Source: Polytrichum commune (lineage: Eukaryota > Streptophyta > Polytrichopsida > Polytrichales > Polytrichaceae). From it: 64,000 nt of DNA. The stretch spans positions 17,732,001 to 17,796,000 of the forward strand of contig OX485804.1 in the NCBI GenBank assembly GCA_950295325.1, written 5' to 3'. The position numbers and the translations under genes were made by a program. The notes under the pieces were generated by a model. It worked only from the letters and a program-made list of their open reading frames with translations. It was not told where the DNA came from and did no database searches. Within the stretch, counting starts at the first letter, position 1. Every line of letters starts with the position of its first letter. Below are positions 6,320-39,284 of the stretch, piece after piece.

Positions 6320-6682
6320 GTAGTTTCCATTAAAATGATAGTATGTTAAGCTAGGAAATCGACTGATTTAGGTTGAGTTGATCTAAATGAGGACAATATT
6401 TTGTCAATTTAGGTTGAGTTGACCTAAACGAGGACATTATGTTGTCAATTTAGGTTGAGTCGACCTAAATGAGAACAATATTTTGTCAATTTAGGTTGAG
6501 TCAACCTAAATGAGGACATTATGTTGTCAATTTAGGTTGAGTCGACCTAAATGAGGACAATTATGTTAGTTAATTTAGGTTGAGTCGACCTAAATGAGGA
6601 CAATATGTTGTCAATTTAGGTTGAGTCGACCTAAATGAGTCAATTTCCCATCTTAACATACTCTCATTTTAATGGAAACTAC
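6320..6682. mobile_element. MITE enclosing a seven-unit tandem array
   Basis: Terminal inverted repeats of about 34 bp (left 6320-6353, right about 6649-6682; roughly 31 of 34 positions pair) begin GTAGTTTCCATTAAAATGA. Between them nearly all the DNA is a tandem array of units of about 41 bp. There is no coding capacity, so it is a non-autonomous DNA element or a foldback structure. I could not settle on a target-site duplication. Confidence 0.65.
6367..6640. repeat. Tandem repeat, about 7 x 41 bp
   Basis: Seven units each start TTTAGGTTGAGTCGACCTAA or a one- to two-base variant, followed by a TGAGGACAATATTTTGTCAA-like spacer. Each unit contains an inverted repeat of its own (TTAGGT / ACCTAA), so single strands could form a series of small hairpins. 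It is not a CRISPR: the spacers are repeated, and the host is a plant. Confidence 0.85.
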
Positions 6683-17306: not shown

Positions 17307-18440
17307 AGGGTGGGGGGGGGGGGGTAGGCAATCCATTGTTGGAAAATTTATTTATTTCCAAAATTCCATTTTGACAAATGGAATTTTTTTCCCATATTCT
17401 CACTTTTCTTTTACAAACAACAATGATTGTTTTATAGCAACAATTTCAACAAAATTTCTATGAACCTCCAAATAATAAAATGAACCCCAAAACCATCATG
17501 ATACTATGAAATTGGTTGGGGCGAACCAACCCGTACATTGGTTCCTTGAAGGCAAGGGTTTAGGCATCCAACAAGGAACGAGTGTATGGGTTGGTTCGCC
17601 CAAATCTATGAAGTTTCTCTTCAGTTGTGATTTATTGCCATATTTTGACGAAAATGGGTGAATAAAAGGGAAGGGGGGCAGTCGCCATAATATGGCGCAG
17701 GCAGCGAGGGCCATGATGGCCACCCGATCTCAAGACATCGGCCCATGCTCGCCTCATGTGACAAGGCTGTCACTCTCCCTCCCTCCACTCTTCGTCGTCG
17801 TCGGCACTCATCGCCTGACGATAGGTCACCTCAGCCATGAAGAGTGCAAGAACTAAGTCCGCCTCTGTCATAAGTGTACCCAAAAGTACCTTGGTGTGGC
17901 CAAAACCTATAACTATTTACTGCCATCAGGTGATAAAGGTCATATATAAGCACTCGGCTATGTCTCCCTCGAGCATCTCAAGTCCTCAACTGACTTCGCT
18001 TCCAGGATGCAATATTCCCTCCTCTACCTAGTCCCGGCCATGGCGACATGCAGTCTAGCTTCAGGAAACATATAAGTAACTGATGGAGGTCTACTCCTGT
18101 CTTGCGTCTTTTTCCAGGATTCAGGCAAGGGCATTGCAAGCTGAAACTAGTTGGAGCCTCGAGTCCTACAGCTAGGGATCAGCTTATGTATACAGCTATG
18201 GCACAGGTCTACAAACTCATCACTGTCTGCATGCCATTAGCTAGGATTGAGCAATCTTAGTCGGCCAGCCTGCTGGAAGGGATCACCAGCTCCTCGGTCC
18301 TGGACATGTATAGGACCCGGTAGTAGGTCGGAGATCGGTCTGCATGCAAGCATCGATAGTCAGAATTGAGGAGCCAGCGACCATATATATTCATCACTTG
18401 TGAAATTACTTCGAGTTGCTGCTTGAGTGCATCTACTAGT
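17307..18440. promoter_or_regulatory. Upstream region of the KCS gene
   Basis: There is a poly-G run at about 17311-17323, then DNA that turns GC-richer towards the gene. Two TATA-like words are visible: TATATAAGC near 17943 and CATATATATTC near 18381-18390. The second lies about 55 bp before the ATG, and the first would give a leader of several hundred bases. Neither can be preferred without transcript data. The minus-strand frame 17496-17723 is not supported as a gene. Confidence 0.3.
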
Positions 18441-20006
18441 ATGGTTAGTGGGGTGGCAAAAGCCGAGTCGGGTAACGTACCCGGTAGCGGCGGCGGCTTT
18501 CTGCAGTCGGTCGTCAACCCCAAGACGATGAAAATGGGTTATTATTACCTTGTGACATACGGGCTCAAGGTGATAGTGTTAGTGTCCCTGTCGTGGGCAG
18601 CATTGGCCGTCGCCGGCCGGATGCGGGACCCGGAGCAGATGGGTTATTATTCGCAGCTATGGGCGAGCCGACCGGAATTTGATTCGGCGGTGGTGAGGGT
18701 GATGGTCGCTTGCACAGCGATCGTCGTGGTGGCACTCACTCTGCACGCGGTCGCGATGGGGGGCCCGACTTATCTCGTGGACTACGCATGTTACCTTCCG
18801 CCGAAGCACCTGGAGGTGCCCCGCAAGAAGTTCCTGGAGCGGAGCCGTGCGTCGGGGTACTTCGACGAGACGAGCATGGACTTCCAGGAGAAGATTCTGA
18901 GCCGGTCGGGGCTGAGCGAGCGCACGTGCCTCCCGGCGGGGTTGCACGCGCACCCGCAGCAGCTCGACATGCAGGCCGCACGCAAGGAGGCCGAGGACGT
19001 CATGTTCGCGTGCCTTGATGAGCTGTTCGAGAAGACGCGGGTAAAGCCGCGGGACGTCGGCATCCTCGTCGCCAACTGCGGGATGTTCTGCCCGACGCCC
19101 TCGGTGTCGGCGATGATCGTGAACAAGTACAAGATGCGGTCGGACACCCGCACGTTCAACCTGGGCGGTATGGGATGCGCAGCATCAATCATCGCCGTTG
19201 ACCTCGTGCGAGACCTCCTGCGCTTACACCCAAACTCGTATGCGATTTTGTACAGCAGCGAGAACATCACGCAGAACTGGTACTTGGGAAACCGACGGTC
19301 GATGTTGATTCCGAACTGCCTATTTCGCGTCGGCGGCGCGGCCGTCCTCCTCTCCAACAAATGGAGCGAGCAGTGGCGGTCGAAATACAAGCTGAGCACG
19401 ATCGTGCGCACACATAAAGGCGCGGATGACAAGAGCCACCTGTGCGTGATCCAGCGCGAAGATGAGCAAGGGAAGAAGGGTGTCGTCCTGTCGAAGGATA
19501 TCATGGACATCGCCGGGAAAGCCTTGACGACCAACATGACGACACTCGCCCCGCGGGTGCTGCCTGCGTCCGAGCTGATCCTCTACTTTGCCAACCTCGT
19601 GGGGCGAAAGGTGCTCCACATGAAGACGCTCAAAGCCTACGTCCCGGACTTCAAGCTCGCCTTCGAGCATTTCTGCATCCATTCGGGCGGCCGCGCTGTC
19701 GTCGACGCGTTGCAAACCAATTTGCAGCTCACTGACCAGGACTGCGAGGCCTCGCGCATGACTCTCTACAGGTTCGGCAATGTCTCCTCGGCGTCCATCT
19801 GGTACGAGCTTGCGTACATTGAGGCCAAAGGGCGGGTGCGAAGGGGCGACAGGGTGTGGCAAATCGCCTTTGGCAGTGGCTTCAAGTGCAACAGCGCGGT
19901 TTGGCACTCTCTTAGAACCATCAAACCACCACCAGCGAAATACTCGCCTTGGACTGACTGCCTGGACGAGCTCGTGGGTATACCCGAATTGAAGAAAATG
20001 CTCTAA
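18441..20006 (+). CDS. 3-ketoacyl-CoA synthase (KCS), intronless
   Basis: This gene encodes a 521-residue fatty-acid elongase condensing enzyme. It joins malonyl-CoA to a long-chain acyl-CoA in the first, rate-setting step of very-long-chain fatty-acid synthesis on the endoplasmic reticulum, supplying waxes, suberin or cutin and sphingolipids. Two hydrophobic segments near the N terminus (about residues 35-59 and 83-105) precede the FAE1/type III PKS-like domain. The catalytic triad is visible: Cys246 in GGMGCAAS, His414 in CIHSGGRA and Asn447 in RFGNVSS. The 168- and 33-residue spacings equal those of Arabidopsis FAE1. The open frame extends upstream, but 18441 is the first ATG in it and gives the family's usual length. 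No intron interrupts it. Codon third positions are strongly G/C, unlike the AT-rich surroundings. The KCS subclade cannot be fixed by eye. Confidence 0.96.
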   Translation: MVSGVAKAESGNVPGSGGGFLQSVVNPKTMKMGYYYLVTYGLKVIVLVSLSWAALAVAGRMRDPEQMGYYSQLWASRPEFDSAVVRVMVACTAIVVVALTLHAVAMGGPTYLVDYACYLPPKHLEVPRKKFLERSRASGYFDETSMDFQEKILSRSGLSERTCLPAGLHAHPQQLDMQAARKEAEDVMFACLDELFEKTRVKPRDVGILVANCGMFCPTPSVSAMIVNKYKMRSDTRTFNLGGMGCAASIIAVDLVRDLLRLHPNSYAILYSSENITQNWYLGNRRSMLIPNCLFRVGGAAVLLSNKWSEQWRSKYKLSTIVRTHKGADDKSHLCVIQREDEQGKKGVVLSKDIMDIAGKALTTNMTTLAPRVLPASELILYFANLVGRKVLHMKTLKAYVPDFKLAFEHFCIHSGGRAVVDALQTNLQLTDQDCEASRMTLYRFGNVSSASIWYELAYIEAKGRVRRGDRVWQIAFGSGFKCNSAVWHSLRTIKPPPAKYSPWTDCLDELVGIPELKKML

Positions 20007-22635: not shown

Positions 22636-23015
22636 TGCCCACTTTGTCGCAACCTTTGCTAGTTTTTCTTAACTTATCTTGACCAGATACCAACTCTAGC
22701 AAGTGTCACAAGTGCTAACCTGTACATCCCATGCCCATGTATGGTTAGTTCCCCATACCATGAACCTCCAAGCTCATGGCTTGGTCACCAAACCCTCCTA
22801 CACATACATTTGGGACTCTCCCCTTAGTAGGTAGCCAATGGTTAAATATAGACTTTCATTCATAGAAGTTCATTCTTGAGTTGATCATTATGTTACCAAA
22901 GCAATACTACAACAACCCGAAGTACAGTTGCCAAGTATGTTCCGAGTGGGGTCGGTCGGCAAAGCCGCCTCACTCATATAGGCCTCTAGGACTTTTCACA
23001 AGGCCATACCCCACT
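22636..23015 (+). repeat. Repeat X, left part of split copy
   Basis: This matches X at 16393-16793, from the TGTCGCAACC start to ...CCCACT, where the 10-kb retrotransposon begins. The rest of this copy resumes at 33107. Aligning the two parts with the uninterrupted copy places the insertion point to within a base or two. Confidence 0.75.
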
Positions 23016-23446
23016 TGTCACGTGAGGTGACATCGGGGGCTAAGTCACGTCAATTTAGGAGTAAATGGACTCCACTAGGAGTCCATGTGTGTTGGGATGA
23101 GTAACGGACTCCATTGGGAGTCCTAGTTAGTTGTTCATCCACTCCATGGATGAACTCCACACAGGATTGGGGTTGTATAGAGAGGAAGGCCTCTTGACTT
23201 GCCATTGTTGTCAAGTCAAGTCTTGTGAGTGTGTTTTGAGAGAGAGAGAGCTTGTTGTTGCTTTCTCATGGCTATGGTGTAGTAGATTATGAGTAAAGCC
23301 TTTGCATTCTTTCTCCACCACTTGCACTCTTGGATTCTCCCTTCGTGGAGTGAGAGATAGCTTGACTCTTGTGTGTGAATTTTAGAGTTTCTTAAGCTTT
23401 GTAAGGAGACATTTTAGTTTCTTAAGCTTGGAGAGAGAAACCCTCA
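23016..23446 (+). repeat. 5' LTR of the methyltransferase element
   Basis: 431 bp, TGTCACG...CCCTCA. I saw no difference from 32213-32643. It contains a GA run (GAGAGAGAGAGAG) and short inverted repeats around GGACTCC/GGAGTCC. The sequence just after it (TACTTGACAACAATGGCTC) is not a primer-binding site I recognise. The LTR here lacks the roughly 105-bp segment that flanks the right-hand copy on both sides. Confidence 0.85.
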
Positions 23447-24553
23447 TACTTGACAACAATGGCTCTAATTTTTCATTTTTGGTTGTATTTCTGAGCTAGA
23501 ATGGCCTAGTAATGAGAGTAAATGAGTGATACAAGTGTTTGAAAGCTTAGTTCGTCATTTCTTGCAACCCTCAAGAAAATTTTGAGAGAAATCTTCCCAT
23601 TTTTCTTTTGTTGTCTCTTGTATTTTCTTCAATTGTTGATGGTTGAATCTTGAGATTCCATTTAGTTTCAAGATTCTCAAGTCACATTTTCTTGCTTGCA
23701 AATTGTGAAGCAAAGTTTAATTTAAATAAAAACATAAACCACAATCAAAATCCGATTTATTTTAAATTTTGGTTGAGCTCCGGACGGATCCGGAGCTCAC
23801 CGGACCCTCTTGGAGCTCCAATTCTGAATCCCGGGGGCGGGCGGGCGCTAGCCGGGCCCCACGGGCGGGCGGGCGTCGGCCGGGCCCACAGGTGGGCGGG
23901 CGCCAGCCAGGCCCTGGCTGCAGGTAAGATACCCTTACTTTTATTTTTTATTTTTTATTTTTTATTTTTTATTTTTATTTTATTTTTATTTTTATTTTTA
24001 TTTTTTTATTTGTTTTGTTTAATTAAAACTTTTTTATTTTTTTTATTTTTTTCACATTTTTACTTTCACCTTTCAAACTTGGCATCCAATTCTCACAAAC
24101 TTTGAGGTTCAAATTTGGGGGCATACTAGCTCCGATCGGAGTGAAATTTGAGCCTACCTTGTGTGAAATTTGCCAAGGAATCCAATGGTGTAATTGGATT
24201 GTTGATTGGAATTCAAAATCATTGCTGAAATTATTAATTTCAACGCTGATTTTTGTTTTTGGGAGCAAATTAACTCCGAACGGAGTGAAATTTGAGCCTA
24301 ATTTGTGTGAAATCTTCCTAGGAGTCCATTGGTGCACTTAGTTTGTTGATTGGAGTCCATAATCACCTTGGAAATGAGCCTTTTCAACGCTGATTTTTCA
24401 TTTTAATTACCAATCTCAAACCTTTGCACAATTTTGGAATTCTGGGGGCATAAACACTTGGCATTTGGCAAGGGATTGCCATATAGATAGCCCGCAACAG
24501 GTGCAGGTTGCCATTACCTTGTAGATAGTTGCAGGTACTCAAGTGATTATTTT
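23447..24553 (+). other. Leader of the methyltransferase element
   Basis: This non-coding leader is about 1.1 kb. In order it holds: AT-rich sequence; three roughly 33-bp G-rich repeats of the GGGCGGGCGGGCGC type at about 23832-23915; a strong splice-donor-like CAG/GTAAGAT at about 23921-23930; a long T/A tract (23938-24055); and a tandem duplication of about 142 bp (24122-24262 and 24264-24404) sharing CGGAGTGAAATTTGAGCCTA. Acceptor-like CAG/GT sites lie near 24495 and 24533, just before the gag ATG. A spliced leader intron is therefore plausible but unproven. Confidence 0.5.
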
Positions 24554-25990
24554 ATGGTGCAAACTAGGAGCCGATATTATCGATCTCCATCACCAGATTA
24601 CTTGGAGGACGTGCATACCACAAATCTTGAGCCAGAGGTAGATACCAACGAGGCTTTTGAGCCTATTTCGGCGTTGGACACTACTAGTAGGCATCGGATT
24701 TGGAGTGTCGGCACGTTCGACGAAATGGAGGACGATCGCCACAATTCAGTGCGTGATCGGTTTTCAGGTCGAGCTGGGGGCATTTCCTTGCCCGATTGGA
24801 AACTCCGGTTTCGTACCTGGATTAAGGAGAAACGCTAAAGGTCTTCCAATTTCAATGATTGGTATGCCTTTGAACTTCTGCCTCAACATTTGGAGTATGA
24901 GGCACTCCAAACTTATGAACGCTGGACAGAGGGTCATCAGCGACAACTTCGAGAGGTGGAGCAATATTGGGAGGCTCGGGTTGAGCTCATTTCAGCCCTT
25001 AAGGATGGGGCGGTTGCTACCTTAGCTCCACCCACCTTCAAGGAGGAGGAATCGCCGGCGGAGTCTAAGGACACGGAACTGGCACTTGGGCCAATGTTGG
25101 CTAGCAGTAGCACGGCAACCCTTTCACGGGTGGCACGTGCTACACAGGCAGCATTGACGGCTGTTGGTCCACCACCTCCGTTTAATCCCCTTACTGAATT
25201 TGTTGCACATTTGGAAGTGGAGTATGGTGGGTTTCGGCGAGACCAGATGCAGCGCATCCAGGATTTCCGCCGAGAGAAGGATGATACTCCACGGACCATG
25301 TATACGCGACTCGCGTGATTTGCTGTGGAGTCGGGAGGTGTTTTTGCTGAGAGTCAGCTTGTTAAAATCTTTTTGTCTAAGATTGACAAGCGGCTACTTG
25401 AGTTGGCATCACCTCGGATTATCCTCGACTACGAGGGCCGAGCTACGCTTGCACAAGCGTTTGCCGTGGTTGAGAGATGTGATCGGGCTCTTTGCCAACA
25501 TGATGCCACGGATATGGTATCTTGGATGACAGAGAGTCCGAAACCAAGAAGAATTGTCACAGCTACTAGTAGTTTAACTAAGACTCAACCCGTCAAGGAG
25601 CAAAAGATTTTGCATTGTTGGGGTTGTGGAGAAGCTGGTCATTCGAAGAATGATCCCAATTGTCCTAAGAAGAAGAAAACTTAGCCTTTGGGAAAATTAA
25701 AACAAAAGATGGAACCAGTAAAGACAGGGGACAATTCTAATAAGAGACAATTGAAATGTAACCATTGTGGTGGCACTAATCACGATGTGGATCATTGTTT
25801 CCAACTTCATCCTAAGATGCGGCCTGCCAGTTATGTCACTGGAAAGTCTCCAAGGGAGCAGAGTCTTGAGGCTAAGGTGGCAGAGCTTGAGCAAAAGCTC
25901 AAATCTTCTGCATCTTTTGCTCAAATTTCTGAGCCGCATGTGGATGGTGGCACCTCGGGTTCGGACATGTATATGTTTGGAGCAACTGGA
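24554..25990 (+). pseudogene. gag region with two zinc knuckles
   Basis: ATG at 24554 opens a Gag-like frame, MVQTRSR..., that continues in one frame with in-frame stops at 24836 (TAA), 25316 (TGA) and 25682 (TAG). A capsid-like helical part is followed by two zinc knuckles. The first, CWGCGEAGHSKNDPNC, has CX2CX4HX6C spacing rather than the usual X4. The second, CNHCGGTNHDVDHC, is the standard CX2CX4HX4C and binds nucleic acid in the particle. A short coiled-coil-like stretch follows (about 25860-25920). All three stops are one transition away from sense codons (CAA, CGA, CAG), as expected from cytosine deamination. Confidence 0.8.
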
Positions 25991-26599
25991 GAGGTGGTGG
26001 TGGCGGCTTCTACTCGCTCCCAAACATTGGCAGATGCAGTGGCTTCCACGAGTGGTGGTAGCAACGAGGTGCTACATCCTCGCCATGCCGGACCAGCTGA
26101 TCAAATTGGTCAAGCACGTTTACCTCTTTCATTTGGATTGGTAGACACCACTATTGTTGGGGCTAAAAACCCTGTACCTTTGAGAGATGGGGATTCCATC
26201 TCGAAGGATGTTACGCATGCATTGGCATATAAAATTCTCTATATGCCAATTTTCTCGGGTTCGGAATTTATGGCTTCGGATTTCAAGCCTGCTACAGTTT
26301 TTCATTTAGCTGGGAGAATGTTAGAAGGTAAGGCTGATTTGCCATCCCTTCAAATATCCCAAGCTGTGGTTGACGTACCTGTGGCTGAGGAGTTGGAGGA
26401 CTTAGCCAATTTGCGAGCGAGTCTTGCGGATGCGGCGATCATTGCTTTTGGTAAGCAAACTGATATTCCTCCAGCATCAATTCCAGAAGTGGATACGTCA
26501 TTTTCGAATTATGCGTCGGGAGCGGCATATCTTGCAGACATTTCTGCAAGGCTTGCTCGCGAACGGCATAATTTGCAACCTGGAGTTGTACGGCTAATG

Positions 26600-26990
26600 A
26601 ACGACAAATCTTTGTTTGTCGTTTCACGCACGGATATGCCCACTATCCGTGCTACACCACTGAGAGTTATGATGGATTCCGGTGCTCAACCGGTTATGAT
26701 TGGCAAAGGACTTGCTGACAGTCTTGGATTGACGCCAGCAAGCTTGGATCCTTGTCCATTCACTATTGTGACTTCAGTAGGGGGCACTGAACGTGCAACA
26801 GGTTACACCAAGGCACCTCTAAGTTTGATTTTTCATGTGGGGGCAGGGCCTACTTACAGTCATTTGTCAATGAACTGTGTTGTTACTAATGCTACCAACT
26901 ATGATATATTTGTTGGTCAGCAAGCTCTTTACCCACTTGGCTTTGGTTTGGATAATTGGACGGAAGAGGCATGGATTAGACCGGGATGGT
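26600..26990 (+). CDS. Retroviral-type aspartic protease domain
   Basis: It sits in the same frame as gag and the methyltransferase. The active-site motif MDSGA is at 26672-26686 (Asp codon 26675-26677), preceded by a beta-rich stretch and followed by a typical hydrophobic pattern ending near YDIFVGQQALYPLG, the flap and C-terminal loop region. It would cut the Gag-Pol polyprotein. The catalytic Asp, Ser and Gly are intact. The segment between the zinc knuckles and the protease (26000-26600) is open but unassigned. Confidence 0.8.
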
Positions 26991-27339
26991 CCACTGGAGA
27001 TGGCAGGAAGGTATTTATTCCCGTCACATTTGCAGCCACTGCTATGACTATGGTTGCGGAGGCAATGTTTGGTTGCAGCGGTTCAGTTGCAAATTTGCCT
27101 TGTGCTCCAGTTTTATTGGAGGAAATAATGAACTACACTTGTAATGCGGCAGAACAACAATTTTTACCATCTTTTCAAATTCCTGCTCGACATTTCAAGG
27201 ATCCACCTCCACCATGGCGAACTCCTAAGGAGTTATCCGACCATTGTCAACACATTGTAGCGGATTTGGAGCTTGGAGAAGCACCCCCAACTTCATCCTC
27301 ATTTTCTTTTGCTCAACCCATTCGTTGGCAACCATCACC

Positions 27340-28330
27340 TGAAGGTATTGTCCTTGTGGAGATCTTTGGAGGCATTGGCACAGGTTTGGCGGCAGTGTTG
27401 GAAGCTGGAATTACAGTTTGGCGATATATTCATGTGCACAATGGGTATGCAGCCAACAAAGCCGTCCGACACCACATCCAAAAATTGTTGTTGAGATACC
27501 CCGCACAATTGTCAGCCTCTGCCATTCATGGATGTTGTGGTCAACTTCCTCAAGATGTCACTATGATTAGTGATGAGGATTTGAGAAGGTTGGGCCACGT
27601 GGATTTGATTATTGCAGGATGGCCTTGTCAAGGCCATTTGCGGGCAGGAACTGGCTAGGGATTGGATGACCCTAGGTCTAGTTTGTTTGCGGATTTGATG
27701 CGATTGACGCAATGGTGGTTTATCCACCAATCAACTCCGCCAGGGTACATTTTCAAAAATGTACCATTATTGGGTGATACCCGGCACAAAGTGGTGAAGG
27801 ATGGTGAGTACATTAACCAAATTCTGGGTACTCTAATATTTATGGATGCCGCATCTTTGGGATCCTTTGCTCATCGGCCTCGTTGGTTTTGGACCAACTT
27901 GGTATCACCTCGGGTGCTTTCATCGGCGATTGCCCGCATTCCCCGCCTTATGGATCGCAAGGTGGATGACATTTTAAATGATCATCGTGTTTCCTTGGCA
28001 GTTACCAAGGATGACACCTTGCCATTTGCATTAATTAACAAGGTGGGCATCCCGAGAGGTGCACTACCTACTTTTGTGACATATCCACAGTCTTTTGCAT
28101 TTCAATCTCGTGGACCTGGCATGGTTTGGGATTCAAAATTCCAAATTTATGAGGAGCCTACGGCAGATGAGCGGGAACGCGCCATGGGTTTTCTTACAGG
28201 TACCACGGCTGCTCACGGGCTTCAGGAAGGTCAGAGACGTTTCCTATTGGGGCAAGCTATGGATCTTAATAGCATTGTGTGGATGATTGGAATTTATCTT
28301 GCTGCTCAACAACGTATGGATGACCAATTG
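27340..28330 (+). pseudogene. C5 cytosine-DNA methyltransferase domain inside pol
   Basis: About 325 residues in the polyprotein frame carry the C5 methyltransferase motifs in the ordinary order. Motif I is VEIFGGIGTG (27356-27385). Motif IV is GWPCQG, with the nucleophile Cys at 27626-27628. A LDDPRSSLF stretch follows. Motif VI is read as FKNVP (Lys codon 27755-27757, where active enzymes have the ENV Glu). Motif VIII-like is HRPRWFWTNL, and then come MGF and RRFLLGQAMD (motif IX/X, about 28175-28270). The order excludes the permuted DRM type, and PCQ rather than PCN argues against a DNMT3 type. An in-frame TAG at 27656 splits the domain just after motif IV. It lies between protease and RT, not at an end. 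If intact it would methylate cytosine in DNA, possibly the element's own cDNA. Retrotransposon-borne methyltransferases are known from dinoflagellates and charophyte algae. Confidence 0.88.
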
Positions 28331-28662
28331 CTTACTCTGAGGGCAGAGAACAATGATCAGAGGGCAATGGAGCCGCAATCCAAGGATCACATTGAGGTCA
28401 ATGACACCGAGGGATTATTTCCTTTGAAACTTCATGTTGCGGAAGAGCTTCGAGCCCAACGTGTTTTTTCGGCTTTGGCCCAAGAGTTTGGGAAGTTGGA
28501 GGCCCATAAAATGTTTCCACTTCTATTTCTTGGTGATACTTCATATGTGGGTAGCTATTTAGCTACACAAACTGATTGTAGTGGAGAGGATACACATTTG
28601 GATTCAAGTGCAGATGAGGGGGCAAAGGTGTTGCCCTCTCCACGGACTAGCAATCATAGGCT

Positions 28663-30282
28663 GTGCTGGCACCAAGTGGCAATCCTTCTATGAAGAAGGA
28701 AACCACGGAGTTTGACGATTGGCCAATTGAAGTGGGGCCAAATCTTACTGGTGCCGAAGCACGAAAGGTACGGGCATTTATTCGCTCTTACCGTAATCGT
28801 TTTGTCTTTAGTCTTCATGATCTTGAAGGATATAAAGGTAAACATGTTCGTATTCAACTCAAGGACGACCACCCTATTTTTAGACGGCCATACAGATTTA
28901 GTACCTCTGAAAGGTTGGGTGTTCAAACTCGATGTCAAGAGTTATTGGCAGCGGAATTGATTGAACTCTCCAATGGAGAGTATGCTTGTGCTACGGTTAT
29001 GCCGTCAAAGAAGGATATCTTTGGCAACTGGACGGAAAAACGGATGTGTGGTGATTATCGTCCAGTCAACCGCAAGACCAAGTCGGATCGATATCCAATG
29101 CCGATGCCGGAGGAGTTGTTTGATACACTAGGATTTTCTAGAATCTTCAGCACTCTGGATTTGAGGTTTGGTTATCACCAATTACCTTTGTTGTTGGGTG
29201 ATCGGGTGAAGACCGCATTTTGGGGAATTGATAAAGATGGCAAGGATCAACTTTATCATTGGAAATTTCTGCCATTTGGTCTCAAGAATGCACCAGCTGA
29301 ATTTCAGCGGGTGATGGACCAATTATTGGCTGGTTTGCCGTTTGCTAGATGTTACATTGATGATGTTATCATCTTTAGTAACAGTTCACAGGATCATGTG
29401 AGACATTTGCAAGCGGTATTTGAACGACTTCAACGGTGGGGACTCCGTTTACATCATGGAAAATGTAAGTTTTTCCATGATCAATTGCCCTATTTAGGCC
29501 ACATGATTGTTCCTGGCGGTCTTGGTGTGCAACATGCGAAGGTGGATGCTTTGCACAAAATTCCCGCACCTAGTGATGTACCACGGCTTCGTGCATTTCT
29601 AGGATTGGCAAATTATTATAGGAGGTTTGTCAAAAAATTTAGTTTGATTGCCAAACCTCTTACCATTCTCACGGGGAAAGACCAACCATGGATTTGGAGT
29701 CGGGAACAACAACAGACATTTGATACATTGAAGCAGAGGCTCGGTTCAGCGCCAGTGCTTCGACGCCCGGATGTGTCTAGAGCTTTTCAATTGCACACGG
29801 ATTGGAGTGCAGTGGGATTGGGAGCAATATTGACACAGAAAGATGAAGAGGGAAAGGAATATGTGGTGGCTTATGCATCTAGAAGTAATAATAGTGCTGA
29901 ATCTAATTATTCTTCTTATGAAGACGAGGCCTTGGCGGCCGTTTGGGCCATTGCACATTTTCGACCTTATTTGTATGGGCAGAAGTTTACTTTGGTGACT
30001 GATCATCAGCCTTTAAAATGGCTTATGGAATCAGATAAGCTCACCGGAAAACTTGCTAGGTGGGCATTGTTACTTCAGGAATATGATTTTGAAGTTGTTC
30101 ACCGAGCAGGAATTGCCAACTTGGATGCAGACGGATTGTCTCGCAATCCAAGTCCTTCAGATGAGGATTTAACTAGAGCCAGGTGGCATGGAGATTGCGA
30201 TCGTGAGGCAGTGCCGGGTTGGCATGCTGCCACGTATCTCACAATGATGTTGGGATTGGCTGCTTGTGGAAGAGTAAGATGA
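28663..30282 (+). pseudogene. Reverse transcriptase and RNase H
   Basis: A Ty3-type RT covers most of this frame: the RMCGDYRPVN block, STLDLRFGYHQ, LPFGLKNAPAEFQ and the catalytic YIDD in CYIDDVIIFSN (29355-29366), then the RNase H connection (FLGLANYYRRF). RNase H follows with HTDWS, SYEDEALA and VTDHQPL, giving the D-E-D acidic set. This 1.6-kb stretch has no stop. It is one base out of frame with the upstream methyltransferase frame, and the two overlap between the stops at 28657 and 28691. The position 28663 is the limit of the open frame, not a translation start. The next domain, integrase, is again in another frame. Confidence 0.9.
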
Positions 30283-31550
30283 GGAGGTTGATAAATCTCT
30301 CGTTGTTAGTGATGTGTGGGAAGACCAGGCGGTCTTGCACAAACTTTAACAAGGGATATTTCCTCTTAGACTATCTTCTATGGAACGAGATAGAGTTAGT
30401 CACCGGATAACAAGGTTTCGTTGGGCAAACGGCTTGTTATTTCGTGTATGGCCGAACGGAACGAGGCGCATCATTCCAAGGCCAGATCAAAGAGCTTCTT
30501 TGGTGCGGCAAGTGCACGAGGAGCTTGGACATTTTGGAGTGCGAAGGACACACTCTATGTTGCGCAACCAATATTGGTGGACTGGTATGTACCAACAGGT
30601 TGCCACTTATGTTTCTCGGTGTGAAGTATGTGACCGGGTCAGGTCAAGTTTTAATACTTTGTCACCTCAACTTCAGCCTTTACCTATTATGGGCTTGGGA
30701 TATCGTTGATTTTGCCGGACCGCTTACTATCACTCCACGTGGTTCCAAGTATGTGTTTGTGATGGTGGAGCATTTTAGTAAGTGGATTGAACTCGTGGTT
30801 CTTCCCCAAAATTCCTCAGAATTGGCAGCTATGGCATTTCTTGATCGAGTTTTGGCACGGTTTGGAGCACCTGCAGAGGTGTTGACGGATCAAGGGAGAG
30901 AATTCCTTGGATCTTTCGAGGCTTTGTGTACCAAGGCTTTGATTGATCATCGGACAACTTCCAGAGATCACCCTGAGGCAGATGGCTTAGCTGAACGAGT
31001 TGTTCAGACGGTTAAGCGCGGTTTGCGGAAGTATGGATTGCTTCATGGCAACCATCGCGATTGGGACTTGATGTTACCATGGATAGCAATGGGTTATCGT
31101 TTCAGCAGGCAAGCATCTTTGACATCCTATAGTCCTTACCAACCCTTGTATGGACGGGAACCAATTTTACCTAGCTCGGTGCGAGAGAAATTGGCTCCCG
31201 TGGTAAACTTGGATGATCCAGATGTTTGGGCTCAATGTCTTCATAACCGAGCAACGTTCTTCCAAAAGGCCATGCCTATGGCTATGGAGAACTTAAATAT
31301 TGCTCAACATCGTGATACATTACGGTATGCCCGGATCCGCAGTGGAGCTTATCGACCTCAGGTTCGTAGATTTTCCAAGGGGGATTATGTTTATTTGCAA
31401 CGGGAGGTGCCTACTACATTGGATGTCAAGGTTGGGCGCACGATTTTGCGGGTAAAAGATGTCTTGCCAAGTGGTATATTATTGCTTGAAGGCAAGGATG
31501 GACGGGAATGTCGTGAGCATTCAAAGAATTGTGCTCCATGTCACCTTCCC
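30281..31550 (+). pseudogene. Integrase, zinc-binding and catalytic domains
   Basis: The HHCC zinc-binding domain (VHEELGHFG... CEVCDR, about 30500-30640) is in frame 2 with a TAA near 30348. The catalytic core switches to frame 3 near 30700, so a small deletion probably lies there. The core shows VDFAG (first Asp), LTDQGREF (second Asp) and DGLAER (Glu, about 35 residues on), the DDE set that joins cDNA ends to host DNA. A basic beta-rich tail follows (about 31340-31550), ending in a GPY/F-like segment that is not well conserved. The frame breaks make this copy non-functional as read. Confidence 0.85.
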
Positions 31551-31853
31551 ATCGACGGCTCTGTGCATTCCGAGTTGGCGGTTGTACCACAGGGTCTGCC
31601 TTGTTATGTTTGTGGAGAGAAGAAAGGAGCTGCAACAATGTTATTGTGCGACCAATGTCAACGTGGATGGCACATGACATGTTTGACACCTCCCCTTTTT
31701 ATTCTTCCTTCTGGCAATTGGGTTTGTCCTCGTTGTCGGAAAGCCTCTCATTCCGTGGCCGTTAATGATCATGATTGTGAATTTTGTGGATGTTTACCAC
31801 ATGTTTTAGTGGTGAAGTTGTTATTTAGTTGGTTGGAAATTTTATGGGATTGA
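31551..31853 (+). CDS. PHD finger at the integrase C terminus
   Basis: In the integrase frame, after the basic tail, comes a complete C4HC3 PHD finger (about 31595-31735). Its pattern is CYVC, then CDQC, then HMTC, then CPRC, with the conserved Trp two residues before the third Cys pair region (GNWVCPRC). PHD fingers bind the histone H3 tail, often reading K4 methylation. Many plant Ty3 elements carry a chromodomain at this place to guide integration, so a PHD here suggests a different chromatin target. All eight zinc ligands are intact. The frame ends with TGA at 31851-31853 after a further short Cys cluster (CEFCGC). Confidence 0.85.
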   Translation: MDGSVHSELAVVPQGLPCYVCGEKKGAATMLLCDQCQRGWHMTCLTPPLFILPSGNWVCPRCRKASHSVAVNDHDCEFCGCLPHVLVVKLLFSWLEILWD

Positions 31854-32106
31854 AAATCACATTGAAAGAATTATCCAAGAATTCAACATAAATGGTTGAA
31901 GGCGATTAAGGATGGGGCTCAAATTGCACCCAGCCTATAGTTCTTGGATTACTTTCTTAGTCATGAGTTTAATTCCTTAGATTACCACTACCCAATTGAA
32001 TATGTATAGATGTAGCAACAACTTCATCATGTTCAACAACTCTACCGATGAGTATGTTTGTTCCTAGCCGATTGGAGGGGCTCCTTATATGCTAGTGGGG
32101 GCACTT
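31854..32106 (+). other. 3' untranslated part of the element
   Basis: Non-coding sequence ending in a purine-rich AGTGGGGGCA (about 32094-32103), a candidate polypurine tract. It lies about 105 bp upstream of the right LTR as defined by comparison with the left one, instead of directly next to it. Confidence 0.5.
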
Positions 32107-32212
32107 GAAGAGGTGGTTGTTTAGCATTTTAATTTGTTATTTTATTTTGCTAATTGATGTTGACGCCGACACTCGATCTGTTGTGTTTAACGATCTTAGT
32201 TTACACGACAGC
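32107..32212 (+). repeat. Segment A, inner copy before right LTR
   Basis: CTTGAAGAGGTGGTTG... to ...TTTACACGACA, followed by GC and then the right LTR. The same segment, with about three base changes, occurs after the right LTR (32645-32736, continued at 33092-33106). It follows directly after the candidate polypurine tract. That would make it the start of the LTR if the LTR is taken as A plus the 431-bp unit. Confidence 0.8.
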
Positions 32213-32643
32213 TGTCACGTGAGGTGACATCGGGGGCTAAGTCACGTCAATTTAGGAGTAAATGGACTCCACTAGGAGTCCATGTGTGTTGGGATGAGTA
32301 ACGGACTCCATTGGGAGTCCTAGTTAGTTGTTCATCCACTCCATGGATGAACTCCACACAGGATTGGGGTTGTATAGAGAGGAAGGCCTCTTGACTTGCC
32401 ATTGTTGTCAAGTCAAGTCTTGTGAGTGTGTTTTGAGAGAGAGAGAGCTTGTTGTTGCTTTCTCATGGCTATGGTGTAGTAGATTATGAGTAAAGCCTTT
32501 GCATTCTTTCTCCACCACTTGCACTCTTGGATTCTCCCTTCGTGGAGTGAGAGATAGCTTGACTCTTGTGTGTGAATTTTAGAGTTTCTTAAGCTTTGTA
32601 AGGAGACATTTTAGTTTCTTAAGCTTGGAGAGAGAAACCCTCA
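32213..32643 (+). repeat. 3' LTR of the methyltransferase element
   Basis: 431 bp, by eye identical to 23016-23446 (TGTCACG...CCCTCA). The bases next to it (TCTTG on the right) do not match those left of the 5' LTR, so the target duplication lies further out, after the second copy of segment A. Confidence 0.9.
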
Positions 32644-33106
32644 TCTTGAAGAGGTGGTTGTTTAGCATTTTAGTTTGCTATTTTATTTTGCTAATTGATG
32701 TTGACGCCGACACTCGATATGTTGTGTTTAACGATCAACGCTCAACGGACTCAACGGGAATCGAACCTGGACCGCCTAAAATGCACCACAACCATCGTCC
32801 CTCAACCAACCAAGGACCCATGATCTGGTGTCCACTAATAAAAACATAACACAACTTATACTAGTAACACACAGACAACCACATGCTACAAGAACGACTG
32901 GGCTACATTTATATGTTTTCAGGTTACTAAAGTGTCTATCCTCGAAAGGGGAGAGTAGTCATGTACCAATGTTCCTTTGCCCGGTGGGTACTGGCCCATT
33001 GACAAGACGAACAGACACTCTATTCACGCCGGCCTCGAAAGAGGACCGGAGTTTTTATCTATCTATCTATCTATCTATCTGTTTAACGATCTTAGTTTAC
33101 ACGACA
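32644..33106 (+). repeat. Segment A, outer copy, split by an insertion
   Basis: Repeats 32107-32210. It is interrupted after GTTTAACGATC (32736), resumes at 33092 and ends ACGACA at 33106, directly before CACT, which matches the CACT left of the 5' LTR. It is therefore part of the inserted unit, not host flank. Confidence 0.75.
32737..33079. mobile_element. 343-bp retroposon-like insertion
   Basis: It is flanked by a perfect 12-bp direct repeat, TGTTTAACGATC (32725-32736 and 33080-33091), and ends on the right in (TATC)n (about 33057-33079). Length, duplication size and simple-repeat tail suit a SINE or other target-primed insertion. GGAATCGAACC at about 32758-32768 is a Pol III B-box in reverse, so the strand is unclear. 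The exact family is unknown. Confidence 0.55.
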
Positions 33107-33612
33107 CACTATCAAAAAAAAATTGTCTTTTTCCTAAGGGTTGGGGCCAAGTAGATATTTTCTCTTAGCTACTGTGACTAGAAGCCCTCAGCAGCTTCAA
33201 ACTACTATAACTTCTTCTCATGATCTTAAATGTTATCAAACAACCACTCTATCAACATCTATTCTTTATGTACATGCCAATGGATCCCTCACTTGCTTCA
33301 TTCAAGTAAGTATTGAGGAACTTATGGTTGTTCAAACCTAGACAGGCCCGGGCGTCACTCCCAGGTCATTATTGTCCCGAGACAACGCCCCACTCAAATT
33401 GCCATATCTCCTAGCTCACACCTCTGATTGAGTTGTTCTCAAACAATCTAGAATTCGAACGCCATAAGCTACTCATAAATCATGGCCTTACCCTTGTGAC
33501 TCCTAGTCTCCGTGGGTGGAAGGTATTCTCAACGTCCAAAGCTCTCACTCACACTAAGATTACTTGGGCCTTCTCACCAATGGCACCACAAGTCTCGGGT
33601 GTCACTTTGGGG
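33107..33612 (+). repeat. Repeat X, right part of split copy
   Basis: Matches the X copy at about 16798-17290 (the GTTGGGGCCAA, CAGCTTCA, GTATTGAGGAA and GCCATAAGCTAC blocks). It runs up to the LTR of the second Ty3 element at 33613. Confidence 0.7.
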
Positions 33613-34052: not shown

Positions 34053-34124
34053 GTCTAAGCTCGGTATCGTGATTCGACGCCGAAGGAGCGAAGAAGAAGC
34101 TTAGCGACCTTGGAAGCCGCAACG

Positions 34125-35100
34125 ATGGCGACCACGAAGCGCTCCAAGAAATGCAAAGGCGAGTCGCGACGAGGAGAAAATGAAACTGGAGAGGAGTTGG
34201 AGCCGGAAGTCGCAATGGAGGCGATTCAAGGCGAGGAGGGCGTGACGAGTAAGAAGACTCGCGTGTCACGCAAGAAGGCCGTAGTGCCTACTAAGACCGC
34301 AATTCCAATCCACGAGGAGTTGAACTTGGACCCGATTCACGTTGAGCTCACTCAAGAGCAAGGTGTGGTGAATCAAGCCGAAGTGGCGGAGGACCAACCC
34401 AACGTACCGCCCGTTAAAAGCAAAGAGGTTGAGTCCAAAGAATCCGAGAAGGATTCGGATCGGGAGGGACCCCGGCGACGCGAGACGCCAATAGCGAGGC
34501 TCAAGGATAAGTTTCGCGAAATGAGAGCGACTATGGCCACTTTGATAGACCAAAACCAAATGTTGGTTGAAATTATCCGAAGTGGAAAGAGCTCGTCGTC
34601 GGAAGGTGCCAAGCCGATTTATATGAAGAATGTTCCCAAGCCCATGATGTGGGATACAAAGGATAAGCGGAACATTGAAGCATTTCTCACGGAGTACAAA
34701 ACGTATTGTGATACGTCGGGGTATAACGGCGACGAAGTGCGGGTGAGAAGTTTTGGGTCGTTCCTAAAGGATGGCGCGTCTATCACCTTTGCGGCGTGGT
34801 GAGGTTCGCGAGGCAAATACTTGTCGTGGAAGGACTTCAAGGAATAGGCGATTGAGGCGTGGTGCAAGCCGCACCAACACCTTCTCGATGTAACGTCCTT
34901 GAGCGCTATGAAATGGAAGAACGATCAAAATTTGTCGCGTTATGCCGAGGAGTACAAGTCTAAGCATTTGCAGTACGATTGCGAGAAGAACCCGCAACTC
35001 GGCATGATGGAGGCGTTTCTCGCGAGTCTCGACGAATCAATTCAATACAAAGTGTGGGAGCGGAAGTGTGAGCCCAAAAGGGTACCCACATTTAGTCTTA
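34125..35100 (+). pseudogene. gag of the second Ty3 element, first part
   Basis: A Lys/Glu-rich N terminus and a coiled-coil-like stretch (KFREMRATMATLIDQNQ) are followed by a plant Ty3 capsid (retrotrans_gag type): the MWDTKDKRNIEAFLTEYK block, then LSRYAEEYKSKHLQY. In-frame stops occur at 34800 (TGA) and 34845 (TAG). The frame runs to about 35100, where unrelated DNA begins, and the capsid tail resumes near 36700. Confidence 0.75.
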
Positions 35101-35102
35101 GA

Positions 35103-36690
35103 CCCTTGAAACGTTAGTTGATGCACTTTGAAGTAGCATGTTACTTCACAAAAATATAAAAAGAGTGAAATGTTAGTCTTAGAAGTACCATGTTGTAAGA
35201 GGCTAGGATGTGAGTTGTTATTGTGTTTTTACCTTCGGAAGGATTTGAGTGAATGGGGATAGGTAAGGAGAACTTGGATTGAGTAGTTAGTGAGTAGGCT
35301 AGTACAAATGGATGGAGACAACCAAAGTGACTCAAGAGGCAAGTGCATTCGAATTGGGATGAATGGAGGATCACATGGAGCGCACAAGTGGACCACCTCA
35401 TCATGGCCACTTAATGGGGAAGGCCCAAGGAAGAATGCAAGGTGGAGGATAAGCAAATTCTCAAAGCACCAATCAAATCACGAGTTAAGCATCGTGGTTT
35501 GAATTAAGTGGTGAGCGACGATTTGGGAAAGTAAGGGGAGAAAGTTATGGCGGCGGAAAGCGAAGGAGGCTAAGTTTGGGTTGAAGCATCCCAAGTTTGG
35601 TAAAGTGTGGTAGGTAGAAAGCCAAGGCTAGTTAAATGTTCGAATTAGGATCCTTGTTGATCATTTGAGGGAGGAAGACTTAGAAGATAGGATTGGCGCC
35701 TACTAAGTAGGAGGAAATCTCAAGGGCTTATCGTGAGCCTTGAGGGTGCTCACCCCCTCAAGCTTACTATATAATCCCTCATTCTTCCCTCACTCATCCT
35801 CTCTTTCCTTTGTGCTCCAAGGCACCCCACGAGTTATAAGTGTGGGTGTGGGAAGCCATATTGGAGCACATGTGTGTGCTTAGTTTTTAGTTTGAGAGCC
35901 AAGGCTTGTTAGCCTTGAAGAGGGCTTGACCTCTTGGTAGAATTAGTGTTGACGTGAAGGATTTTAAAGTTAATTCATGATTCCAATTTGTGGTACTTAA
36001 AGTTCATGTTTTGAATACACGTGGTTGCAAGTTCCATGTTTAAGAGTTGAGCACTTGATGTTGTGATGAGTGCAAAAATATACTTGTGTGGATTAGTTAG
36101 TCTTAGTGAAGTTAGGAAATTCTCTCTCCCCCTCTCCTCTCTAGGATTTTAGGATTTTAGGATTAGAGAAGAATTGTGTGATTAGAAAGGGGTTGTTAGT
36201 AGAATTAGGGAAATTAGGTAGGAAGATTAGTTAAGGGCTTGAATAATTAGTGAGGTAGTTGGGGATTACAACTACAAAGTTGTGGGTTCATGAAGGAGCT
36301 GGGTTTATGAAGGAGCTGGGTTTGTTTAGTTAGAAAGTAAAGAGCTGGGTTTATGAAGGACCTGGGTTTGTTTAGTTAGAAGCTAAGGAGCTGGGTTCAT
36401 GAAGGAGCTGGGTTTATGAAGGAGCTGGGTTTGTTTAGTTAGAAGCTAAGAAGCTGGGTTTATGAAGGAGCTGGGTTTATGAAGGAGCTAGGTTTATGTA
36501 ATTAGAAAGTAAAGAGATGGGTTCATGAAGGAGCTTAGTAGATAGCCTACCTAATTAGCTCATAGACAAGTAGTTAGTTACATTATGCTAGTTAGTGTTA
36601 TGTGTGGCTTTCACAAGTAAATGTATTTGAGATTGACTATAGAGAATAGTGTTTTTTTTAACACTTGCATCCTCTCTTTAAAAATAAACC
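35103..36690. mobile_element. Unclassified 1.6-kb insertion within gag
   Basis: The gag frame stops abruptly after a KRVPT-like end and continues at about 36690 with an AQLMENVEHSRD-like block, so about 1.6 kb was inserted. It holds a TATA-like CTATATAATCCC near 35768 and short plant-leader-like sequence. It has no long open frame and no TG...CA ends that I can place. The tandem array at 36290-36540 lies inside. A solo LTR of an unrecognised family is possible. Confidence 0.5.
36290..36540. repeat. Tandem array of GAAGGAGCTGGGTTTAT units
   Basis: About eleven imperfect copies of a 17-18 bp unit, GAAGGAGCTGGGTTTAT, are mixed with longer variants carrying GTTTAGTTAGAAGCTAAG. The higher-order period is about 60 bp. 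No coding role is evident. Confidence 0.75.
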
Positions 36691-37200
36691 ACGTGCACAA
36701 CTTAATGGAGAATGTGGAGCACTCTCGCGATGGCAAGACAAAGGAAGCAAAGACCAAAGTTAAATCCAAGACCACTTGAAGGGTGAACCTTGCACTATGG
36801 ACTCATCCAAGTCCAAATCCAATACCGCGGAGGAATGTGAGCCCAAACCCACTACTCGGACTACGGACGCTTAAGGGTGGGGGGTTTGGCCTCACAGGAA
36901 GAGTCTCCCGACCACGATGATGAAATTGCTAAATGTTGTGATTTCGTTGGTAGACGCGCGAGAGGTTCGACACTCTGATCCTCCAAGTGGAAAGAAACCT
37001 TTTGAAAGGTCTTTCGGGAGTGGCAAGCCCAAGTTCGCGAAGCGGAAATGAGAAGCGAGAGAGGAACCCGAAGGGAGTTCGAGTAGCAAGACGGTCACGT
37101 CAAAGGGGTTCGTCAGGCGGCTGAAGCACGTGGATGCTAAGGACGCGACGAAAAGAGAACTCTACTTCAAGTGTGGCAAGGCGGGCCACGTCGCAAGGGC
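36690..37200 (+). pseudogene. gag of the second Ty3 element, zinc knuckle part
   Basis: Continuation of gag after the insertion: an NVEHSRDGK block, basic Ser/Lys-rich linkers, then a zinc knuckle remnant, KCGKAGHVAR, at about 37160-37195. The upstream first Cys and the last Cys are lost or out of frame. Several stops and frame changes occur here. Confidence 0.6.
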
Positions 37201-37209
37201 GGGATTGGA

Positions 37210-37824
37210 AAGGTAGAATTGAACTCTACTACGATCTCGCCAAGGCAAGTTGAAGAGCTCGACACCTTAATCAAAGAGAAAGGGCCGACTTTCAAACGAG
37301 GGTACCGAGTGCTCGAGAGTCTTAGTCTTAAGACGTTAGTGGCCAAGGGTGGCTTCGAGGCTAGGCTCTCTTTGATTAGCCCGAGTAGTAATGGCTTGGT
37401 TTATTTGAAAGGTCAAATAAACGGTACTAATGTGTCGATGTTGATTGATACAAGAGCCACAAACTCCTTTATGACGCCGGAGTGCGCCAAGAGGATGGGA
37501 GTAGTGGTGGCGGACACGGCCTTGCCGGTGAAGGTTAACTTCGCGCAAGGATCGTATCAAGTGGCGCAAGTTGCGCGGAGCGTGCGGTTTAAGGCGGAAC
37601 CGGCGAAGTTCGAAGAGGACTTCACCGGGTGTGTACTCGGAACAGTGGACGTAGTGTTAGGAAACATGTTTTTGCACTACTGCGGGGTGGAAGTTAAGCA
37701 AAGGCCTAGACTTCAAGTGGTGATGGTCGGATCAGATGGAAAACCGATGTCATTACCTCACATTAAAGTAGCGGAATTAGATGGTTTAAGAATCAATCTA
37801 GTTTCACAACAAGACATTTTTTAG
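37210..37824 (+). pseudogene. Aspartic protease with altered active site
   Basis: A Ty3-type protease fold: a beta-rich block around GQINGTNVSMLIDTRATNSF, then GSYQVAQ, then DVVLGNMFLHYCG (the C-terminal motif). The active site reads IDTRA where the family has D(T/S)GA, so the Gly is Arg (a single G-to-A change) and the enzyme should be dead. This 217-residue stretch is otherwise open. Confidence 0.75.
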
Positions 37825-38193
37825 GAACAATTTGTATTAATTTTTAAAGATGATGTCTTCAATTCTAATACGAAGGGTGAAACCCCATTACTTTCATGTT
37901 CAAGTTATATTACCCAAGTCCTTAACGAATTTGGAGATGTTCTAACTAACCAACTCCCGAAGGAGTTACCTCCCGAGTGGGAGGTAGACCACAAAATTGA
38001 GCTAGTGCTTGGGGCGGAGCCCCAAAACAAGGCTCCATACCGATTCAACCAAAGTAAGTTGGTTGAGTTGAAGAGGCAATTAACCGAGCTTTTAGCGCGA
38101 GGCTATGTTAGGCCTAGCAAGTCATCGTTTGGCGCGCCGGTGCTCTTTGTGAGCAAGAAGGGCGGCCAATTGCGGATGTGTATTGATTACCGT
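37825..38193 (+). pseudogene. Reverse transcriptase, N-terminal part
   Basis: After a stop at 37822 the same region continues into the pre-RT linker and RT N terminus: PLLSCSSYITQVLNEFGDV, DHKIELVLGAEP, then ARGYVRPSKSSFGAPVLFV and LRMCIDYR. It is cut exactly after the IDYR block by the solo LTR at 38194 and resumes at 39285. Confidence 0.75.
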
Positions 38194-39284
38194 TGTCAGG
38201 TAGAGAGGGTTCCGCCTTGGGAAAGCACTGGGCTTTTGGCTGCAACTAGATTTTATCGGACCCGTCAAATCTTCTTGTCTTCAATCGAGTCTTCTGGTCT
38301 TCTAGTCTTCAATTTCTTCTAATCTTCAACCTCTTTCCCGTCGACCTATCCTGTTGCGGCTCTATATGGGTAAAGGGTAAGGGTAGTGTGATAAGAAACC
38401 ACGGGCTTCGGACGGGTAAAACGGGACGTCAGAACACGAGCTGACGTCCGAAAGATTGGCTCCTAAACTTTCAAACCCACGGTGACCAGCAATCGCGCCT
38501 CACCAGTGGGAACGACAGAAAACAACCTTGTGGGTGATCAATCCCACTTCGTTGTCACAAACAACCTTGTGGGTCATTAATCCCACTTCGTTGTCACACA
38601 TGAAACAAATTACGATGCAGAAATGAAATGCAACTAGCCTCCAAAACCGGCTTGGAATCACACACACAAGAAAAAGACAACGTGCCACAAGCAACCACAC
38701 ATTCAAGTCTTGAAGCCTTCAATTCTTCAATTTGTCCGTCTTCTATGGTCGGTCGAAGTCTCAGCTCTTCTTTTAAGAACCAACAGACTTCCCTCCACTC
38801 AAACAAGCACAAATCTTGATTGCTAACTTCCAAAACAACAAGTGAGATCTCTCATGAATCACAAATCCCTCGTATTTTATTTCATATTCTTCTCAAAAAC
38901 CACTCACACCGTGAGCTTCGAATCCACTTCTCTCTATCCATGCGAGAGATAAAGTTCTCTCTTATCCTCATCACATGGCTTCTAATCACCCATTGGTCCA
39001 AAGTAACTCAAGATAACTAAAAGACAAAAATAAACTATGAGTAAATAAAAAGGTAATCTATTTCTATCATTTGGTAAAGGTAACTAAGAGTAACTATGAG
39101 TAAACATAAAGGTAAGCAACTTCTATCCACTTCTATCTTTAGGTAATGATAACTAAAATAAACTATGAGTAAATAAAAAAAGTAATCTACTTCTATTCTT
39201 TATTATTTTTCTCCAAGACCAAGACTCACAATGCAATATTAAATACGTACACATCTATATAGTGTACGTATTTACATCACGACA
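38194..39284. mobile_element. Solo LTR, 1,091 bp, inserted in RT
   Basis: It starts TGTCAGG and ends ATCACGACA, with CCGT on both sides (38190-38193 and 39285-39288) as the target duplication. Removing it restores the RT junction between IDYR and the next conserved block. Inside are a tandem pair of about 38 bp (from 38522, containing CCCACTTCGTTGTCAC) and about three imperfect copies of a 75-bp AAC(T)ATGAGTAAA unit (39000-39205). The end sequences resemble those of the methyltransferase element, but the interiors do not match. Confidence 0.8.

Follow-up and report, generated by a model that had tools for sequence, protein, structure and literature searches.

The 64,000-nucleotide stretch of DNA analysed here (the window) carries an element that is almost certainly, both in identity and in kind, a Ty3/Gypsy retrotransposon with a DNMT3-like C5 cytosine methyltransferase, of the KnitGypsy-Dnmt3 kind. 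This Ty3-type element spans positions 23016-33106 and is bounded by a CACT target duplication; the window has a GC content of 41%, which speaks against Klebsormidium as the host, that of Klebsormidium nitens, from which KnitGypsy-Dnmt3 is known, being near 53%. DNA methylation is normally directed at retrotransposons, and an element that brings its own enzyme represents a reversal of this relationship. The explanation proposed as a whole is of a young, broken copy of an element whose methyltransferase ends the Gag-protease ORF, which would prime its own reverse transcription, follow a circular route to integration and methylate itself, and in this entirety it is moderately probable.

The methyltransferase domain occupies approximately 27320-28360 on the plus strand, as judged by its matches to PF00145, to PDB sequences and to the intact domain of a related element, L001. 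A sequence-only reading of the window had placed a C5 methyltransferase at 27340-28330, and the enzyme is indeed found there, within these somewhat different limits. The motifs named by that reading are all present on the plus strand, in order and in frame 2, which Gag and protease also use, namely FGGIGTG (27365-27385), GWPCQG (27617-27634), the motif VI sequence KNV that starts KNVPLLG (KNV at 27755-27763), HRPRWFWTNL (27872-27901) and RRFLLGQAM (28235-28261). Their order is the normal one and not the rearranged order of DRM. The predicted membership in PF00145 is borne out by a significant match (E 2.7e-8; 34 bits, with a cut-off of 22) when an X is set at the single stop of the domain; the two stop-free pieces, each searched alone, returned an E of 0.1 and no match, and the support for a methyltransferase offered by the window copy by itself is moderate. 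In a search of the PDB with E up to 1, the top 25 of 51 sequences are DNMT3A, 3B or 3C (best 3.1e-6), followed by HaeIII (1.1e-4) and by 4onj (0.003), labelled there as a DNA methyltransferase, which we take to be a plant DRM. A two-row profile likewise ranked DNMT3A/B/C in the top 29 of 49 places (best 2.6e-9), with HaeIII, HhaI and DRM-type enzymes next. By these comparisons, the best match among solved C5 methyltransferases is DNMT3. An in-frame TAG lies within the domain (27656-27658, +), and motif VI reads KNV in place of the ENV of L001 and DNMT3A. Because of this internal stop, and of the Lys that replaces the catalytic Glu of motif VI, the methyltransferase of the window copy should be inactive. 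Structure predictions of the domain, alone and with that of L001, gave pLDDT values of 36 and 34, too low for use.

The intact relative, L001, is a 9285-bp public contig (bases 1-8254 analysed) met in a scan of a prokaryote genome collection, where it is filed under a cyanobacterial metagenome bin; it is probably a eukaryotic stray in that bin. ORF1 of L001 (3-3491, open at the contig start) encodes Gag, its knuckle, protease and methyltransferase, and ORF2 (3492-6635) encodes RT, RNase H, integrase and a PHD finger, the two sharing one frame with a single TAG between them. The L001 methyltransferase (PF00145, 6e-13) is of full length, retains both PCQ and ENV, the latter absent from the window copy, and is 66% identical in amino acids to the window domain over 347 codons with zero gaps, at the same position in the element. 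The weak scores of the two stop-free pieces by themselves would be expected of a chance motif match or of an insertion into a single copy, but this reading is ruled out by the intact and gapless L001 counterpart at the same place, and its probability is negligible; the domain is present in another element of the kind, that of L001. A separate match, in Mycobacterium (L002), was taken as chance, its ORFs looking unrelated by eye.

UAG-CAR-YYA is the tobamovirus-type context for readthrough of a stop codon, and the ORF1 stop of L001, a TAG followed by CAATCA, fits it. Because L001 places the methyltransferase in ORF1, ahead of this UAG-CAA-UCA stop, the enzyme may be made at the level of Gag, while RT and integrase would arise by readthrough in smaller amounts; working copies would then produce methyltransferase in step with Gag and reach RT through a leaky UAG. 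The window counterpart of the ORF1/ORF2 boundary is a frame change at 28660-28693. The sequence-only reading was correct in setting the domain between the protease and RT of a Ty3-type element, but the domain lies at the end of ORF1 and not in the middle of pol, as the L001 stop codon precedes the RT ORF. Nor does RT follow directly, as had been claimed, since it begins about 300 nt further on, in another frame (28660 onward).

Phage and viral sequences were also compared with the domain. Matches to the L001 domain were obtained in 766 of 50,697 phage records, all at under 60% identity. Against the window domain, two phage enzymes scored 67.8 and 55.5 bits, compared to 52.0 for a DNMT3A segment shortened to 172 residues. 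The better of the two is no clean relative of DNMT3, because it is about as near to HhaI as to DNMT3B in the PDB (1.5e-27 and 6.2e-27, respectively). An 11-row tree grouped the window domain with the DNMT3A segment and the two phage enzymes, with its inner forks open and its long branches flagged. A viral contig collection held no relative of the window domain, the window RT or the L001 domain, and the two-row profile drew from it six partial matches, compared by score and tree only. The Klebsormidium domains are placed with Dnmt3 (PMC5890265). The phage C5 methyltransferases in L009 (1225-2661) and L010 (1183-2061) score 94 and 70 bits to the DNMT3A segment, that of L009 being about equally near to HhaI and to DNMT3B in the PDB, and are possibly of interest for the origin of DNMT3.

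The coding parts of the window element all lie on the plus strand. Gag (24491-25684, frame 2) bears a CCHC knuckle recognized by eye (Pfam E 0.096) and three in-frame stops (24836, 25316 and 25682), and the part of it from 25103 matches L001 ORF1. The aspartic protease (MDSGA; 26654-26797) matches PF13650 at 2.6e-4, below the cut-off, as is its L001 counterpart. Beyond the methyltransferase lie a Ty3-type reverse transcriptase with RNase H (28660-30282; PF00078 and PF17917; Ty3 RT 4ol8 at 5e-75), the H2C2 zinc-binding region of the integrase (30482-30646; PF17921, 2.2e-19), its DDE-type rve core (30690-30974; PF00665, 6.9e-13; Ty3 Gag-Pol match at 4.1e-8) and a PHD finger at the integrase C-terminus (31602-31736; PF00628, 7.1e-10, and 4.3e-10 in L001). 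No tyrosine recombinase match was found in the scanned ORFs, where the rve integrase was found instead. The order PR-RT-RH-IN and a Ty3-like RT, judged by best PDB match, make the element Ty3/Gypsy by its pol, and its 4-bp CACT duplication and TGTC..GACA ends fit that group (4-5 bp, TG..CA).

The terminal repeats are arranged, from left to right, as A1-internal-B1-A2-B2. Repeat A1 (432 nt; 23016-23447, +) forms the left end of the element and begins TGTC, directly following the left CACT (23012-23015). Repeat B1 (107 nt; 32104-32210, +) ends GACA and is immediately preceded by a G-rich tract, GTGGGGGCA (32095-32103, +; GGGGGGGCA in L001), a probable plus-strand primer by its position only. The joint of B1 with A2 (432 nt; 32213-32644, +) forms a palindrome, GACA-GC-TGTC (32207-32216), the putative integrase site, which lies in a 21-nt run identical in L001. 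Repeat B2 is split into a first part (32645-32736, +), whose joint with A2 (32644|32645) is built like a 2-LTR junction, and a last part (33092-33106, +), which ends GACA at the right end of the element and is followed by the right CACT (33107-33110); compared to B1 it has 3 differences in the first 92 nt and none in the last 27 nt. Between these parts lies a nested 343-bp tRNA-like insert followed by one of the two copies of its target duplication, the 12-bp TGTTTAACGATC (32737-33091 together; the 12 bp at 32725-32736 and 33080-33091). The insert (32737-33079) is SINE-like, carrying a tRNA B-box-like GGTTCGATTCC in its minus strand and terminating in (TATC)n, although its tRNA-like part is at the end opposite the repeat tail; neither Rfam, at gathering scores, nor ARAGORN gave a match within the window. 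With A alone at the left and B-A-B at the right, the ends are not canonical identical LTRs, and the element is thus Ty3/Gypsy by its proteins and non-canonical by its ends.

The insertion lies within a repeat about 600 bp long; two related, element-free copies of this repeat are present in the window, at 16547-17168 (+) and 3567-4180 (-). At the corresponding site these copies have CACT once and CACC, respectively, in alignments that stop at or short of the site (the copy near 3.5 kb extends to it on the left), that start 6 and 16 bases from it on the right, and whose final bases were matched by eye. Repeats A1 and A2 are identical, with 0 differences in 432 nt, and the window copy is young. 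It bears four in-frame stops (24836, 25316, 25682 and 27656) and two frame changes (about 30264-30278 and 30705) besides that at the ORF boundary. Because the copy is young, yet too damaged for decay alone, it was probably broken before it moved, and would have been mobilised by the proteins of an intact relative; intact copies were probably present in this genome until lately.

Reverse transcription is very probably primed by the 5' end of the element's own RNA at a site following A1. The predicted RNA 5' end (23201-23216, +) is complementary at 16 of 16 bases to a primer-binding site that starts at the first base after A1 (23448-23463, +), and a TATA-like box, TATAGA (23176-23181, +), lies 25 bp upstream of 23201; in L001 a TATA precedes the matching place by 26 bp. 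The longest match in 2000 random internal windows of the window element was 10 bases. The L001 primer site has 13 consecutive paired bases, compared to a longest run of 11 in 2000 windows, and 15 of the 16 pairs hold there, with three changed on both sides and one broken; of those three, one is on the far side of the broken pair. No tRNA priming was evident by eye following A1. The self-priming site places the right LTR boundary at the end of A, and the G-rich tract before B1, common to both elements, probably places the left one at the start of B. From these two landmarks it is strongly indicated that reverse transcription would yield an LTR of the form B-GC-A, 541 bp long. L001 itself extends from gag through pol to B-A and then continues to the primer site and a presumed leader, as expected of a circle or a collapsed repeat.

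Relative to these LTR edges, the inserted copy, with A1 at its start and B2 at its end, is rotated by the length of one B, and its A2|B2 junction is a direct joint of both LTR edges, as in a 2-LTR circle. Ordinary LTRs shortened by decay were rejected as the source of this layout, since the target duplication sits exactly at the start of A1 and the end of B2 and L001 shows the same order of B, palindrome, A and primer site. The 21 bases around the B1/A2 joint are identical in the two elements, and the 40-column window from 32180, at 95% identity to L001, is the top of 30 (the others 28-85%, the next best at the self-primer). Staggered cuts that leave CA-3' ends with two-base overhangs are products of integrases, and such a cut at GACA-GC-TGTC would leave ends of exactly this form; a DNA copy joined end to end and cut by integrase at this palindrome inside the LTR would acquire the rotated ends. 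Because the inserted ends lie inside the LTR at a conserved palindrome, integration from circular, end-joined DNA is proposed, if only tentatively. Counting against it, B1 and B2 differ at 3 of 107 positions and A1 and A2 at 0 of 432 (Fisher p 0.008), which is unexpected if both pairs date from one insertion. In DIRS elements the joint has been proposed to arise during reverse transcription, and by analogy the A2/B2 joint may alternatively have formed at that stage.

The rotated ends are known from one insertion, L001 having no insertion ends and being equally compatible with ordinary B-A LTRs, and they might be an accident of a 2-LTR circle cut once and not a rule of the kind. This seems rather doubtful, however, in that the ends are TG..CA with a 4-bp duplication, where B-A ends would be CT..AT, and in that the palindrome is conserved in L001. 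DIRS-like repeats are also reported for KnitGypsy-Dnmt3 (Fig. 4 legend of PMC5890265), which speaks against an accident and would suggest, by analogy, that rotated ends are a rule. The broadest claim, that elements of this kind regularly integrate an end-joined circle through the LTR palindrome, with a Gag-level methyltransferase methylating the circle first and a land plant as host, is itself speculative and rather unlikely. The repeat layout makes testable a long-rejected idea, namely that a DDE integrase may integrate circular DNA, and the palindrome provides a precise prediction for all other copies.

The methyltransferase has changed faster in protein than the polymerase and integrase it travels with. 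Amino-acid identity between the window element and L001 is 57% for the Gag end, 53% for the protease region, 66% for the methyltransferase and 41% for the linker, and then 85% for RT-RNase H, 89% and 91% for two integrase parts and 75% for the PHD region, such that the methyltransferase stands above the Gag end, protease region and linker and below RT, integrase and the PHD region. Across its 347 codons, the two elements differ at 0.207 of nonsynonymous sites and at 0.758 of synonymous sites; five of the eight pieces compared, the methyltransferase among them, are saturated for synonymous change, so that no ratio is given for these. This contrast, together with the gapless 347 codons, indicates at the level of sequence that the methyltransferase has been under long constraint. 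The domain might still be retained for a non-catalytic use, such as DNA or RNA binding or particle structure, or be on its way out, as its faster change and the stop and missing catalytic Glu of the window copy would allow; this is unlikely, as L001 keeps PCQ, ENV and the full length without gaps, and the window copy is broken elsewhere too, so that lesions in its methyltransferase need not be special. Two sequences cannot separate an enzymatic from a structural use of the domain.

If the domain does serve as an enzyme, its most likely role, proposed with due reserve, would be methylation of the element's own DNA copy, either ahead of insertion or during it, the element thereby entering the genome already marked. 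The Gag-level placement proposed above would suit an enzyme that is packaged in quantity along with the cDNA. In yeast, two SymbioDIRS enzymes of dinoflagellates carry out de novo CG methylation, and methylation of cDNA is proposed for DIRS elements by the authors of that work, who saw no methylation signal from the KnitGypsy domain in yeast and judged this result inconclusive (PMC5890265). The enzyme could act instead on the target, marking or finding safe insertion chromatin along with the PHD finger found at the integrase end in both the window element and L001; this appears distinctly unlikely, as methyltransferase and integrase lie in different L001 ORFs, and a single insertion site has been seen. 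Less likely again, and indeed improbable, is self-restraint, in which the enzyme would methylate the element's promoter and keep copy number low. Slowed retrotransposition is one option raised in PMC5890265, and the CpG observed/expected ratio of repeat A, 0.25, is the lowest of 15 stretches measured, as expected of long methylation; silencing of the element by the host would, however, also cause CpG loss, and the identity of A1 and A2 means that the window copy moved recently.

Outside the element, a Pfam scan covered 53 of the 76 ORFs of 85 aa or more. The window holds an intact 3-ketoacyl-CoA synthase ORF of the KCS/FAE1 type (18360-20006, +; PF08392, 1e-125), with a GC content of 58.6%, compared to about 39% in the flanking stretches measured, and a CpG observed/expected ratio of 1.15. 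This gene points to a plant, and probably to a land plant, as the host of the element. Remains of a second, different Ty3-type element lie at 34059-39994 (+), with a gag-like ORF at 34059 (recognized by eye), a protease at 37141 and RT pieces at 39283-39994 that are about 34-36% identical to L001. A Tc1-type transposase remnant (60441-60878, +; HTH_Tnp_Tc3_2, 1.9e-6, below the cut-off), an NIF-like phosphatase domain (5169-5846, +; 2e-8) and, among the 53 scanned ORFs, DDE_3 and Ras-family matches were also seen. Two tandem-like arrays are built of 63-bp units with GAGCTGGGTTT (36283-36541) and of 41-bp units with ATTTAGGTTGAGT (6366-6654).

The A1-internal-B1-A2-B2 layout is shared with DIRS/PAT elements with split direct repeats. 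DIRS/PAT elements carry a tyrosine recombinase and are not known to make a target duplication, whereas the present element has a DDE-type integrase and a 4-bp duplication. Self-primed reverse transcription is shared with Tf1/Sushi and the plant element Tcn1 (PMC6317226), which are chromodomain elements, in contrast to the methyltransferase and PHD finger found here; the main text of that survey mentions neither a methyltransferase nor a PHD finger. PMC10508981, like PMC6317226, makes no mention of a methyltransferase, and PMC9477723 makes one, of another enzyme. The sequence-only reading was right about the DNMT-bearing retrotransposons of dinoflagellates and a charophyte, which are described in PMC5890265. 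Among the open-access literature matches listed, there is no report of such an element from a land plant, and PMC6338049 (2019) states that they are absent from land plants such as tracheophytes, a statement that falls if the present host is a land plant. PMC12344493 mentions streptophyte and dinoflagellate elements, LTR Copia and DIRS, that contain DNMT3, and gives as its source the 2018 paper, where the term used is Gypsy. A DNMT is likewise housed inside a retrotransposon in the dinoflagellate SymbioDIRS-Dnmt3 and SymbioLINE-Dnmt, but these are DIRS or LINE elements, and the authors found no relation between their retrotransposon parts and the Gypsy element (PMC5890265).

The nearest known system is KnitGypsy-Dnmt3 of Klebsormidium nitens, published in 2018 (PMC5890265), and the proposal that the window holds an undescribed system must be given up, as that element already combines a Gypsy pol, a Dnmt3-type domain and DIRS-like repeats. 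The main text of PMC5890265 makes no mention of a PHD finger, priming, target site or readthrough. Common to both are the Gypsy pol, a Dnmt3-type domain within the polyprotein, a motif order that is not rearranged, and a DIRS-like repeat structure (Fig. 4 legend, PMC5890265), seen here in the window copy. Constraint on the domain is a further point of likeness. The kind is characterised by conserved functional residues, of which PCQ and ENV are present in L001 while ENV is lost in the window copy, and by purifying selection with Ka/Ks below 0.2, for which the saturated synonymous sites of the two copies yield no ratio in this domain. The two differ, as compared by description and not by sequence, in that the domain of KnitGypsy-Dnmt3 is reported in the Pol ORF (PMC5890265), whereas that of L001 ends the Gag-protease ORF.
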